Positions 10,205 through 13,692 of a stretch of DNA of 64,000 nt are shown here, in pieces. Made by a program: the position numbers and the translations under genes. Source of the stretch: Streptomyces caniferus. Its GTDB lineage: Bacteria > Actinomycetota > Actinomycetes > Streptomycetales > Streptomycetaceae. Each line of letters starts with the position of its first letter. The first letter of the stretch is position 1. The notes beneath the pieces were generated by a model that searched no databases, was not told the DNA's origin, and saw only the letters and a list, made by a program, of their open reading frames with translations. The stretch spans positions 682,001-746,000 of the forward strand of contig NZ_BLIN01000002.1 in assembly GCF_009811555.1 (NCBI RefSeq), in the 5' to 3' direction.

Positions 10205-10453
10205 TTACTGCATCACGGCCATCGCCAGCGCGCGGCGGGCGCGGAGCGACGCGCGCTCGGCGCGCCGCTGCATCCGCCGCGCGGCGGCGAGCCGATGAGC
10301 CCTGCGTTCCGATTCGGCCTCTTGCAGGCGTTCGTGCATATGGGCACGCGCCAGGGCTTCTGGGATGAGTTGCATGGCGAGGTTCCTGTTCTGACGCGAC
10401 TCGATCGCGTCGACGTTCACGGGGACGGGCGTGTCGGTGAGGGAGGGATTCAT
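10205..10453 (-). CDS. Small Arg/Ala-rich helical hypothetical protein downstream of wblC
   Basis: Protein of 82 aa from ATG 10453, with AGGA 8 nt upstream. An in-frame ATG at 10522 overlaps the wblC stop (ATGA) and would add 23 residues. The N-terminus reads MNPSLTDTPVPVNVDAIES. The C-terminal half is a strongly basic helix rich in Arg, Ala, Glu and His. It is probably co-transcribed with wblC. No known domain is recognised. Binding to nucleic acid or to the ribosome is possible from composition alone, but this is inference. Confidence 0.7.
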   Translation of the reverse strand: MNPSLTDTPVPVNVDAIESRQNRNLAMQLIPEALARAHMHERLQEAESERRAHRLAAARRMQRRAERASLRARRALAMAVMQ

Positions 10454-10518
10454 CGTGAGGTCCTGCTTCTGGGGGTCCCGTGTGAGGGGACGGTCGATCG
10501 TTCCTGTGCCGAAGGTGT

Positions 10519-10872
10519 TCATGCCGCAACCGGGTTCTTGCGCGGACGGCCACGCGGACGCTTCCGCGGTACGACGACACCCTGGACGAAGAGCTCGCCG
10601 CCCCAGACGCCCCACGGCTCACGGCGGTCTTTGGCACCGGCGAGACAGGCCTCACGGACCGGGCAGGTCTGGCACAGCGTCTTGGCGTACTCGACGTCGG
10701 CCGGGGACTCGGCGAAGAAGACCTCGGGGTCGTAGGTGCGGCACGGTACGGCAGCGCCGAGGCGGTCGATCTCGTCGTCGAGCTCGGTGAGGGGAAGCAA
10801 GGAGTTCTCCTGAGGGTCGGGCGGAGGGATCAGGTCGGTTGCTACGGACGGGGTGTGCGTCTGCAGTTGCAC
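10519..10872 (-). CDS. wblC: WhiB-family regulator WblC (WhiB7 orthologue)
   Basis: Protein of 117 aa with start GTG 10872 and GAGGA about 10 nt upstream. The four [4Fe-4S] cysteines are visible: one in VPCRTYDPEVFF, two in TLCQTCPV and one in REACLAG. The beta-turn GVWGGE follows, and the C-terminus carries the AT-hook RGRPRK. The AT-hook is diagnostic of WhiB7/WblC. The family activates intrinsic resistance to ribosome-targeting antibiotics by binding sigma-A/HrdB and an AT-rich site next to the -35 element. Upstream lie a long leader with an ORF, a terminator and a promoter carrying that AT-rich site. The uvrD2-wblC order is as in mycobacteria. Confidence 0.93.
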   Translation of the reverse strand: MQLQTHTPSVATDLIPPPDPQENSLLPLTELDDEIDRLGAAVPCRTYDPEVFFAESPADVEYAKTLCQTCPVREACLAGAKDRREPWGVWGGELFVQGVVVPRKRPRGRPRKNPVAA

Positions 10873-10931
10873 GGTGGTGTGTTCCTCGTCTGTTCGGCCC
10901 GGCTGGTGGCTGGGCGCGTTGGGCAAGCAAA

Positions 10932-10966
10932 AGGGCCGCGGATCCCGGTGTGGGTTCCGCGGCCCT
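10932..10966 (-). terminator. Intrinsic terminator inside the wblC leader (attenuator)
   Basis: Inverted repeat of 15-base arms (10932-10946 and 10952-10966, one mismatch) with a 5-base loop. On the minus strand it is followed by TTTTGCTTG. It lies 60 bases before the wblC start codon and 27 bases after the stop of the leader ORF, as expected for transcription attenuation. Its 5' arm can also pair with bases 11008-11026. Confidence 0.85.
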
Positions 10967-10978
10967 GGAAGGTGCCGA

Positions 10979-11026
10979 CCTGATCGTGCCGATCAGGCTG
11001 GATCTCTCCAGGGTTCGAGGCCGCGG
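10979..11026 (-). promoter_or_regulatory. Candidate antiterminator strand and stop-codon hairpin of the wblC leader
   Basis: On the minus strand, 11026-11008 reads CCGCGGCC then CCCTGG. These are complementary to GGCCGCGG and CCAGGG of the terminator 5' arm (10957-10968). About 12-14 pairs, interrupted by a 5-7 base bulge, would exclude the terminator. The segment lies within the last codons of the leader ORF. A perfect 7-bp hairpin (10979-10985 with 10991-10997) overlaps the ORF stop. The structure is inferred by eye and no folding was computed. Confidence 0.55.
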
Positions 11027-11319
11027 TAGGCCCACATTTCATGCTGCGTCTGGTACTGATTCCGGGATTCGGCACCATTGGCCGCCCCGAAGACACGGGC
11101 GAGTGCCGATGCCGCCGTTGCTGCTACCGCAGGTGCCTCGGTCGGTCGCGCGGTGCGCTCACTGCGCGTCAGCACAGCGAGAGACTTGGGGCGCGCGACC
11201 TCGATACCGGACGGACGGCCGAAGCCGGACAGACCGGTACCACGGAGCGAGGAGCCGAGCGGGCAGGTGGCGACGACCGAGCGATCGGTCATTTTGCTGG
11301 TCTCGATGAAGCTGATCAC
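10993..11319 (-). CDS. Upstream ORF in the wblC leader (108 aa)
   Basis: GTG start at 11319 preceded by AGAGGAGG at a spacing of 8 nt, the strongest ribosome-binding site in this neighbourhood. The product begins VISFIETSKMTDRSVVATCP and ends YRGLEPWRDPA; it is Ala/Arg/Ser-rich with no known domain. It ends 27 bases before the attenuator hairpin. Two readings are possible: a regulatory ORF whose translation sets the leader structure, or an independent small gene. Mycobacterial whiB7 leaders also contain an upstream ORF, from memory. That supports the first reading. Confidence 0.65.
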   Translation of the reverse strand: MISFIETSKMTDRSVVATCPLGSSLRGTGLSGFGRPSGIEVARPKSLAVLTRSERTARPTEAPAVAATAASALARVFGAANGAESRNQYQTQHEMWAYRGLEPWRDPA

Positions 11320-11432
11320 TGGGCTCGCCTCCTCTCGGCGTCTCGGTGGACCGGGAATCCCGTTCCAGGGTGTTCAAGTACAGCACGGATCCATCGGATC
11401 TCGGAAGATTCCGTTGTCTCCGTTGCTCCCGA

Positions 11433-11471
11433 AGGCTATGGGGATGCGCTCCGCGCGCGCAAACTATTTTT
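11433..11471 (-). promoter_or_regulatory. wblC promoter with WhiB7-type AT-rich box
   Basis: Minus-strand -35 TTGCGC (11462-11457), an 18-bp spacer and -10 TAGCCT (11438-11433). The run AAAAATA (11471-11465) lies 2 bases upstream of the -35. This matches the known WhiB7/WblC target layout and implies autoregulation. The AT-rich box overlaps the uvrD2 stop codon (11464-11466). Transcription should begin near 11426, giving a leader of about 550 nt. Confidence 0.7.
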
Positions 11472-13692
11472 CCGACGAGTTTTCCGCGGCGTCCCCGGAC
11501 CCGTCCCCGGAGGCCCCCACGAGCCCCTCGCCGGCACAGATTGCCAGCACGTCACTGCCGTAGCGGTCGAACTTCCGCCGCCCCACTCCTGAGATGACCG
11601 CAAGCTCCGATTCGGTTCCCGGAACGGCCTCCGCGATCGCCATCAGGGTCTTGTCGGTGAAGACGCAGTAGGCGGGCTGCCGGGAACGCGCCGCCTGCTC
11701 GGCCCGCCACTCGCACAGCCGCTCATAGAGCCCCTCGTCGAGCTCCGAGGGGCAGTCCTCGCACCGCATCAGCTTCATCTCCCCCGCGTCCGTGAGGGTC
11801 CGGTTGCAGACCCGGCAGCGGGCCGGGCTGCGGTGCCGGGGACGCCGTGCCACCGCCGCCGCCCCGTCGCCGCGCTCGACGCCGCCCGAGAGCGCGCCCG
11901 GAGTACGGCGGCCGGCCACCGCCCCGGACCCGGGCCGCAGGCCGCTGAGGAAGCGGCTGGCGCGGCGGGAGGCCCGCCCGCCGGGCGAGCGCGCCAGCGA
12001 CCAGGACAGGCCCAGATGCAGCCGGGCGCGGGTGACACCGACGTAGAGCAGTCGGCGCTCCTCCTCGATCTGCTCCTCGCTCTTGGCGTAGGTGATCGGC
12101 ATCATGCCTTCGGTCAGACCGACCAGGAAGACGGCGTCCCACTCCAGGCCCTTGGCGGCGTGCAGGGACGCGAGGGTCACCCCCTCGACCGTCGGGGCGT
12201 GCTGGGCGTTGGCCCGCTCGTCCAGCTCGGCGACCAGGTCCGCGAGGGTGGCTGCGGGCCGGGCCTTGGCGAAGTCCTCGGCGAGCCGCACCAGGGCCGC
12301 CAGGGACTCCCAGCGGTCCCGCACCGCCCCGGAGCCGGCCGGCGGCCGACTCGTCCAGCCCATGTCGCTGAGCACCGCCCGCACCTCGGACGGCAGGTCC
12401 AGGGCGTCGTCGAGCAGCGCGTCGTTGGCGCCGAAACGGGCGGCGCCGCGCAGTTTGACGCCCGCCTCGCGCACCTCCGGCCGCTCGAAGAACCGCTCGG
12501 CGCCCCGCAGCTGATACGGGACCCCGGCGTCGGCGAGCGCCTGCTCGTAGACCTCGGACTGGGCGTTGATACGGAAGAGCACGGCGATCTCGCTGGCGGG
12601 CACCCCGGAGGCGATCAGGTCGCGGATCCGGCGGGCGGTGCCCTCGGCCTCAGCGGGCTCGTCGGCGTACTCCGTGTACACGGGCTCGGGTCCGGCCTCG
12701 CGCTGCGAGATCAGCTCCAGGCGCTGCTCGGCGGCGCGCCCCTTGGCCTGGGAGAGCAGACCGTTGGCGAGGCGCACGACCTGGGGGCTGGAGCGGTAGT
12801 CGCGGACGAGCTTGACGACCGTCGCGTTCGGATGGCGGGTGCGGAAGTTGAGGAGGTGGTCGGGGGTGGCGCCGGTGAAGCTGTAGATCGTCTGGCTGGC
12901 GTCGCCGACCACGCAGAGGGTGTCGCGGTCCCCCAGCCACAGCTCCAGCAGCCGCTGCTGGAGCGGGCTGACGTCCTGGTACTCGTCGACGACGAAGTGC
13001 TGGTACTGGGCGCGGACCTGCTCGGCGATGTCGTGCCGGTCCTGCAGCACACCGACCGTGAGCAGCAGCACGTCCTCGAAGTCGATGCTGCCCCGCTCGC
13101 GCTTGAGCTGTTCGTACGTGCCGTAGACCTGTGCGATCTCCGCCGGGTCCCGAGGGGCCTCGCGGCCGGCCTTGACCACCGCCGCCGGATAGTCGGCGGG
13201 CACGGTCTGGGTGACCTTGGACCATTCGATCTCGGCCGTGACATCGCGCAGCTCATTGCGGTCGAACCGCAGGCCGCAGCGGGACGCGGCCTCGGCGACC
13301 AACTGGATCTTGCGCTCCAGCAGCCGCGGGACCTCACCGCCGACGGCCTTCGGCCAGAAGAACTGGAGTTGCCGCAGGGCCGCGGAGTGGAACGTCCTGG
13401 CCTGGACCCCGCCCGCACCGAGCTGACGCAGCCGGCCGCGCATCTCGCCGGCCGCGCGGGCCGTGAACGTGACAGCGAGCACACTCGCGGGCTGCAGGAT
13501 CCCGGCCCGTACCCCGTACGCGATCCGGTGGGTGATGGCGCGGGTCTTGCCCGTACCGGCGCCGGCCAGCACGCAGACGGGACCGTGCAGAGCCGTGGCG
13601 ACCTCGCGCTGCTCGGGGTCGAGCCCGTCGAGCACCCCGTCGGCCGAGTCAGGCACCTGCGGGAAGAGAGAGGAGTCCGTTGCTGCTGTCAC
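11464..13692 (-). CDS. uvrD2: ATP-dependent DNA helicase UvrD2 (HRDC-containing)
   Basis: Superfamily 1A helicase of 742 aa starting at 13692. Walker A is AGAGTGKTRAI near 45; the DEYQDVSPLQQRLL box, GDASQTIYSF and SLHAAKGLEWDAVFLVG (motif V) follow in order. After the motor come a four-cysteine motif (CRVCNRTL and MRCEDCPSE) and a C-terminal HRDC domain (CVFTDKTLMAIAEAVP, VGRRKFDRYG). This arrangement is that of actinobacterial UvrD2, which is essential in mycobacteria. It is divergent from the mycoredoxin gene, and its stop overlaps the wblC promoter. Confidence 0.93.
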   Translation of the reverse strand: MTAATDSSLFPQVPDSADGVLDGLDPEQREVATALHGPVCVLAGAGTGKTRAITHRIAYGVRAGILQPASVLAVTFTARAAGEMRGRLRQLGAGGVQARTFHSAALRQLQFFWPKAVGGEVPRLLERKIQLVAEAASRCGLRFDRNELRDVTAEIEWSKVTQTVPADYPAAVVKAGREAPRDPAEIAQVYGTYEQLKRERGSIDFEDVLLLTVGVLQDRHDIAEQVRAQYQHFVVDEYQDVSPLQQRLLELWLGDRDTLCVVGDASQTIYSFTGATPDHLLNFRTRHPNATVVKLVRDYRSSPQVVRLANGLLSQAKGRAAEQRLELISQREAGPEPVYTEYADEPAEAEGTARRIRDLIASGVPASEIAVLFRINAQSEVYEQALADAGVPYQLRGAERFFERPEVREAGVKLRGAARFGANDALLDDALDLPSEVRAVLSDMGWTSRPPAGSGAVRDRWESLAALVRLAEDFAKARPAATLADLVAELDERANAQHAPTVEGVTLASLHAAKGLEWDAVFLVGLTEGMMPITYAKSEEQIEEERRLLYVGVTRARLHLGLSWSLARSPGGRASRRASRFLSGLRPGSGAVAGRRTPGALSGGVERGDGAAAVARRPRHRSPARCRVCNRTLTDAGEMKLMRCEDCPSELDEGLYERLCEWRAEQAARSRQPAYCVFTDKTLMAIAEAVPGTESELAVISGVGRRKFDRYGSDVLAICAGEGLVGASGDGSGDAAENSSEK

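Follow-up and report, generated by a model that had tools for sequence, protein, structure and literature searches.

Is the long leader in front of wblC (whiB7) a switch that is set by the ribosome, and if so, which strands of the RNA does the ribosome control? We addressed this question in a 64-kb stretch of the Streptomyces caniferus genome (the window), in which the minus strand carries a promoter, an upstream open reading frame (uORF), a terminator and wblC. An earlier interpretation made from the sequence alone (the sequence-only reading) had described this order, with about 100 nt of leader ahead of a 108-codon ORF. We found all of these elements in that order on the minus strand (predicted leader ~107 nt), and the array is thus confirmed. 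We consider it highly probable (roughly 0.93) that this leader is a ribosome-controlled transcription attenuator. Our comparison covered 177 leaders: 100 from Streptomyces (95 from the 120 genomes with a strong wblC, plus five from a wider search of the class) and 77 from other Actinomycetes, the latter being part of the non-Streptomyces wblC matches, mostly the better-scoring ones.

The wblC gene lies behind a WblC-type promoter and a long uORF

The gene at the end of the array (10872..10519, minus strand) encodes a WhiB-like transcription factor of 117 aa. It is a WhiB7-type WhiB protein, based on a match to PF02467 above the Pfam cut-off (G000:C2:692597-692743) and a strong orthologue (E ≤ 4e-50) in 120/121 Streptomyces genomes; the Pfam search gave nine WhiB-family matches genome-wide, this gene among them, and it carries a C-terminal RGRPRKN AT-hook, which we take to be a mark of WhiB7. 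An NCBIfam search returned no family name for wblC or for the uORF. The start codon of wblC is most likely the GTG at 10872, rather than the first TTG of the open frame at 10926, because alignments of the relatives begin there and GAGGAA precedes it. On the other side, the upstream gene (11464..13692, minus strand), a UvrD/PcrA-like helicase according to its best NCBIfam matches, which fall below the curated cut-offs, overlaps the wblC promoter with its 3' end. Past wblC, we also note a small ORF (10522-10205, minus strand) whose C-terminal end has much Arg and Ala; with its ATG at 10522, this ORF would share bases with the stop codon of wblC.

The published layout of WblC promoters is GAAAWY, 3 bp, TKGMNN, 16-19 bp and TANNNT, with the transcript starting 7-8 bp past the -10 element (PMC7157823; citations here and below refer to excerpts of the papers). 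The window has an A-rich box AAAAAT (11471-11466), 3 bases, a -35 element TTGCGC (11462-11457), 18 bases and a -10 element TAGCCT (11438-11433), and thus matches this layout at all but the first base, where it has A instead of G. Given the published distance, transcription from this autoregulated, WblC-type promoter (11471..11433, minus strand) would start near 11426-11425, ~107 nt ahead of the uORF GTG at 11319. A simple consensus scanner run over 10400-11900 found no promoter and two terminator-like sites, both on the plus strand. As it reported neither leader feature, our promoter and terminator calls rest on the published WblC layout, on folding and on conservation.

We considered that the terminator might merely insulate wblC from upstream transcription, with wblC then driven by a promoter below the terminator. 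In the five closest relatives, the gap between the terminator and the wblC start measures 57-85 nt, and in many others it exceeds 100 nt, which offers room for such a promoter, but a loose WblC-type pattern, which represents this promoter type alone, was found in the gap in 0/100 Streptomyces leaders, compared to 100/100 upstream of the uORF. The same counts argue against a transcript start downstream of 10930, which the sequence-only reading had named as the result that would overturn it. Moreover, insulation leaves the pairing and covariation of the uORF described below unexplained, and we regard it as most improbable.

The uORF (11319..10993, minus strand) runs for 108 codons from its GTG to a TGA stop (10995-10993), with a Shine-Dalgarno sequence GGAGG (11332..11328) 8 nt before the GTG. 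We found GGAGG ahead of the uORF in 168/177 leaders (100/100 Streptomyces; 68/77 others), and a uORF bearing a Shine-Dalgarno sequence was picked before the terminator in 177/177, with a picker that favours such ORFs. The picked uORFs, which are homologous to that of the window in the 100 Streptomyces leaders, span 88-133 codons in Streptomyces (median 108; n=100) and 43-175 codons elsewhere (median 78; n=77). The 133-codon value is the unmoved pick for one leader (L092), whose start was shifted inward by hand for the codon alignment (the next longest has 127), and the 175-codon pick (L182), whose stop codon is unusual and sits 42 nt away from the core of the terminator, may be wrong. Long leader ORFs are the rule for wblC in Streptomyces. 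The suggestion that the ORF length and the exact pairing might be new was therefore not upheld, since the Streptomyces median is itself 108 codons and the mechanism is already published.

The uORF peptides have a C-terminal end, M W A F/Y R G.. P W, that is well kept across Streptomyces. From one genus to another, the peptides show little resemblance outside their last residues, where the codons also make RNA pairs. Pro-Pro occurs within the last six residues in 46/77 non-Streptomyces uORFs (often as W-S/G-P-P-V-stop; e.g. L049, L058, L147) and in 0/100 Streptomyces uORFs; in those non-Streptomyces leaders, it might slow the ribosome at the stop codon. Alanine sensing was also considered: Ala makes up 17.6% of uORF residues in Streptomyces and 17.3% in the others, raw frequencies from which we draw no conclusion.

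The end of the uORF and the terminator form alternative structures

The intrinsic terminator (10966..10929, minus strand) consists of AGGGCCGCGG (10966-10957), a loop, CCGCGGCCCT (10941-10932) and a U tract to 10929, and is supported by folding, conservation and pair counts. The segment 10970-10928 folds at -30.6 kcal/mol (shuffle mean -13.6, z -6.4) and runs into TTTT; the sequence-only reading had placed the terminator 5' arm correctly, at 10968-10957. We then folded the RNA as it would stand before the 3' arm exists (11030-10957), which gave -40.3 (shuffle mean -25.1, z -4.4). In this fold, CCGCGGCC together with CTGGAG (or CCTGGAG, at equal energy) pairs with the 5' arm side, so that the complementarity previously claimed between the last codons of the uORF (11026-11008) and this arm is indeed seen.

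Extension of this fold to 10949, in the terminator loop, gave -49.4, with TGTGGG (11036-11031) paired to the loop sequence CCCACA (10954-10949), CCGCGGCC to GGCCGCGG and CTGGA(G) to TCCAG, all around a hairpin at the uORF stop codon (CCTGATC/GATCAGG, 10997..10979, minus strand). This stop-codon hairpin forms the core of the antiterminator and is seen both in the window fold and as a facing hairpin in 32 leaders. From the folds and a contact map, the 5' strand of the antiterminator (11036..11007, minus strand), within the uORF, comprises TGTGGG, CCGCGGCC (11026-11019) and CCCTGGA (11013-11007), and its 3' strand, TTCCAGGGCCGCGGAACCCACA (10970..10949, minus strand), overlaps the terminator 5' arm and loop. 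These results suggest that the antiterminator is longer than first described, with 11036-11007 predicted to pair with 10970-10949 and to take up the whole 5' arm and loop over a covarying stop-codon hairpin. The pairing proposed by the sequence-only reading thus stands, but not its extent, which included neither the terminator loop nor the stop-codon hairpin. When 11030-10928 is folded as a whole, the terminator plus the stop-codon hairpin wins (-51.8), and antitermination must therefore be kinetic.

An Rfam 15 search at curated scores gave 0 matches in the whole 64-kb window, the leader included. Since no Rfam model fired on the leader, a family could be built from it.

The leader is found at wblC in most genomes of the class searched

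The terminator core between the uORF and wblC was located by a regular expression in 174/177 leaders, and by eye in the other three. In a scan of the named genomes with the terminator pattern, 78 of the 80 matches listed, among at least 118 that exist, precede wblC on the same strand; the remaining two have only 222 and 202 nt of downstream sequence. Similarly, a search of the window's own genome with model R1 yielded a single strong match, at wblC (E 1.8e-12); four others there had E values of 0.09 to 4.8, one of them at the same place on the opposite strand. We considered that other genes in this genome might be under a wblC-type element, and rejected this idea on the basis of the single strong match to R1.

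Among 98 genomes of the class, model R1 matched 76 at E ≤ 0.01, and the best match was at wblC in 75, places being compared by eye. In one genome (G174), the best match lay away from wblC, and one further weak match elsewhere was present in each of four others (G084, G092, G160, G166); the best E value of these five was 3.9e-4. Model R1 misses divergent leaders, in that four genomes (G146, G178, G186, G206) have a wblC match without an R1 match. Among 149 genomes of the phylum, 17 matched; one weak match (L207), next to a cold-shock-type ORF and with no WhiB-like ORF found by eye in its ORF list, was taken as noise.

The antiterminator strands covary outside Streptomyces

Within Streptomyces, the pairing is nearly invariant. 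CCGYGG is kept at the uORF end in 96/100 Streptomyces leaders and is present in 3/77 others, whereas words of the GGGTTC, GGGTCC or GGGATC type face a GGAACCC-type arm in 24 of those 77; CCGCGGCC is a Streptomyces feature. The sequence-only reading had called for compensatory changes across Streptomyces, and these were found in part. One leader (L015), the sole one with arm CCGCGA for CCGCGG, is also alone in having T as the facing base of the uORF. Of three leaders with CGGG for TGGG, two have a matching loop CCCGAAC, which occurs in no other Streptomyces leader, and the third a poorer match, CCCCAAC. In contrast, three of the 100 have an unmatched CCGCAGG facing an unchanged arm. A swap test was flat (natural better than swapped in 49.5%) and is uninformative because the pairing varies so little. 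In the Streptomyces contact map, stray cells that do not belong to the expected pairing reach z -5.4, so that relatedness alone can yield such values. Substitution of upstream coding sequence for the uORF end, done twice, lowered the paired arm bases from 12.7 to 5.2 and 4.1, with the leader's own end higher in 100/100 both times. The covariation evidence inside Streptomyces is thin.

Outside Streptomyces, by contrast, the uORF 3' end covaries with the 5' arm of the terminator; an absence of covariation between these strands would, according to the sequence-only reading, have refuted it. We scored the uORF end (stop -36 to -4) in a register-free duplex test against two windows defined from q, the first G of the terminator arm (n=77). 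With q-9 to q+4, the mean for a leader's own partner was -13.11, compared to -11.51 for permuted partners, and with q+4 to q+17 it was -15.10, compared to -13.07; in both cases, 0/5000 permutations, which ignore phylogeny, were as good. Four uORF windows further upstream gave no covariation signal in this test (z -0.7 to 1.3), nor did the terminator 3' arm or two windows past it. A contact map of windows showed an anti-diagonal, with z to -8.9, as expected of one long helix, and one cell off the expected band (z -3.4). The effect is an average one: the own partner was within the best 10% for 23/77 leaders (median rank 0.19). In a half-swap MFE test, the fold was weaker in 79% of swaps, with 17/77 leaders ranking in the best 5% and 17/77 worse than 30%. 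The duplex test replaced a fixed-register count of the outer stem, which had been weak (347/616 cells paired vs 325.4; 5/2000), a result that probably reflects shifts of register. Exchange of the uORF end for upstream coding sequence reduced the paired arm bases from 10.7 to 6.7 and 5.4, with the own end higher in 69 and 74 of 77.

The stop-codon hairpin and the terminator also covary. On alignment A1 (32 chosen leaders out of 92 prepared segments), the facing stop-codon hairpin was 79.1% paired (69.2% shuffled), with 26 cells changed on both sides (11.2 shuffled; 0/500 each), and the terminator was 98.4% paired (96.3%), with 7 such cells (0.5; 0/500). Compensatory changes in each structure exceeded every shuffle on four of five measures; for the hairpin, the number of pairs changed on both sides did not stand out (6 vs 4.9; 107/500).

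A stalled ribosome would favour the antiterminator

We propose that RNA polymerase would start near 11426 and that a ribosome would load onto the 108-codon uORF. As long as translation stays in pace, the ribosome close to the stop would shield CCCTGGA as well as the stop-codon hairpin; the antiterminator could then neither nucleate nor zip, the 5' arm would pair with its own 3' arm and transcription would end at ~10929. When an antibiotic or amino-acid shortage slows or stalls ribosomes before ~codon 90, or when ribosomes are absent there, the stop-codon hairpin would form, and pairing of uORF strand 11036-11007 with 10970-10949 would take up the terminator 5' arm and loop, allowing polymerase to read on into wblC, whose product would then activate its own promoter. 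The order of nucleation, the efficiency of termination and the response to drugs are predictions of this model.

A ribosome on the uORF stop, with the usual footprint, covers ~11013-10982. On this estimate it would hide CCCTGGA and the stop-codon hairpin and leave CCGCGGCC exposed. The idea that a ribosome finishing the ORF covers the pairing strand would thus hold for CCCTGGA, but not for 11026-11019, and termination would prevail through a failure of the antiterminator to zip up from its core rather than through hiding of the whole strand. The mechanism of the sequence-only reading, in which a stalled ribosome leads to the antiterminator and to wblC expression, was nevertheless right in substance; it is the published one, here with covariation in 77 leaders. 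In orthologues, translation inhibitors and amino-acid shortage are reported to induce the gene, and translation of the uORF is reported to control it (PMC11550727, PMC12421871, PMC10727445). Since the strand would stay unoccupied after any stall before ~codon 90, and also if no ribosome initiates, the model suits the many inducers reported.

We weighed two other roles for the uORF. Its nascent peptide might itself arrest the ribosome on a given drug, as in erm-type or RAPP-type systems, such that conservation reflects the peptide. The well-kept peptide end in Streptomyces and the Pro-Pro of 46/77 other uORFs would fit such arrest, but the likeness between genera is confined to codons that also form RNA pairs, the lengths outside Streptomyces range from 43 to 175 codons, and reported inducers span many drug classes and amino-acid shortage, as expected for any stall rather than for one arrest peptide. 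We consider peptide arrest quite unlikely. Alternatively, the leader might act through Rho-dependent or coupling-dependent polarity, with an untranslated or slow uORF altering Rho access and the hairpins being secondary. A long leader ORF with a good ribosome site is compatible with this scheme; however, stalling would then reduce read-through, the opposite of the reported induction, and a strong terminator and a covarying antiterminator would need another reason. Polarity therefore has very little to recommend it, and we retain ribosome-controlled attenuation.

Streptomyces uORFs contain conserved rare codons and a pause-like motif

Codon use distinguishes the Streptomyces uORFs from their neighbours. 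In a comparison of 100 uORFs, 99 ends of the adjoining helicase gene and 87 wblC parts, third positions were A or T in 25.0%, 10.2% and 10.9% of codons, respectively, and columns with a conserved residue had an A/T-ending majority codon in 21/64, 3/76 and 7/97 cases; 16 of the 21 uORF columns precede the antiterminator. In comparisons made within each locus, the uORF was higher in 96/98 Streptomyces, whereas outside Streptomyces the excess was not significant (0.173 vs 0.166; higher in 46/71; P = 0.07). Rare A/T-ending codons that precede the antiterminator are conserved at single columns, for example CGA in 98, AAA in 96, GCA and GGT in 92 each, and GAT and TAT in 86 each of the 100 Streptomyces uORFs. 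The window uORF does not have the conserved TAT.

A nucleotide motif within the uORF (GGTACCGGTCTGTCC, 11241..11227, minus strand) is conserved more strongly than its codons would require and looks like a pause site for RNA polymerase. The elemental pause consensus is G-11 G-10 ... T-3. Y-1 G+1, which the uORF motif, GG.AC..GT.YGYCC, fits. This pattern, drawn up post hoc from the sequences, occurs in 73/100 Streptomyces uORFs, which are related and so not 73 independent cases, compared to a mean of 5.5 (maximum 13) in 200 synonymous shuffles, and in 13/77 other uORFs, compared to a mean of 0.8 (maximum 4) in 200 synonymous shuffles. We also considered whether the internal motif might pair with the stop-codon hairpin, on its 3' strand; inspection led us to drop this idea, as the pairing fits some genera, but not Streptomyces.

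One tentative reading, which we think is rather less than an even bet, is that the Streptomyces uORF is a tuned timer, in which conserved slow codons ahead of the antiterminator (AAA, GAT, CGA, GCA, TAT, GGT) and a conserved internal polymerase pause would keep ribosome and polymerase in step, while the stop-codon hairpin, conserved class-wide, would nucleate the antiterminator. If so, a slight loss of translation speed would tip the switch. Among the titles and abstract openings listed by our literature searches, none announced a pause site, rare codons under conservation or covariation across the class for the wblC leader.

Relationship to known attenuators

The wblC leader switch is already known in kind, and the window leader is an orthologous copy of the published Streptomyces wblC and mycobacterial whiB7 system. 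uORF-linked attenuation of wblC or whiB7 is described in PMC11550727, PMC12421871, PMC13236596, PMC10727445, PMC13393426 and PMC4128351, all but the last of which cite Lee, Lee and Roe 2022 (Mol Microbiol 117:179) as the source for the S. coelicolor wblC uORF attenuator. That attenuator shares the gene, uORF, terminator and switching by uORF translation with the window (PMC11550727, PMC12421871, PMC10727445), and its antiterminator is built from overlapping uORF and terminator sequences (PMC10727445). The main text of a bacterial RNA-motif survey contains neither 'whib' nor 'wbl' (PMC11109978).

This switch governs intrinsic resistance to many ribosome-targeting drugs in actinomycetes. Our comparison adds class-wide base-pair evidence for the antiterminator and suggests that this structure engages the complete 5' arm of the terminator together with the loop. 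The stop codon within the core hairpin of this refined antiterminator would tell where the ribosome must be for termination, and the pause-like motif, like the rare codons kept in the uORF, is a lead on the source of the sensor's sensitivity. The mycobacterial whiB7 leader has reportedly been studied by Burian and Thompson in 2018 and Poulton in 2024. Like the window, it has a uORF after a consensus Shine-Dalgarno sequence, and its RNA declines beyond the uORF, where a stem-loop is followed by a T-rich tail; it is ~350 nt long (Dinan 2014, PMC4128351), compared to ~555 nt predicted here.

More distant systems share the principle. In the trp leader, ribosome position selects terminator or antiterminator by means of a short peptide with a run of sensing codons. 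Likewise, in the ilvB1 attenuator of M. tuberculosis (PMC13236596), the position of the ribosome on the leader ORF picks terminator or antiterminator, but it too has a short leader peptide with a run of sensing codons, whereas ~90 codons of the window uORF could sense any stall. The S. coelicolor ARE-ABCF leaders tiaA and are5sc are also drug-responsive uORF attenuators in Streptomyces; their uORFs have 3-9 codons, with stalling at the start codon (PMC12421871), unlike the long wblC uORF.
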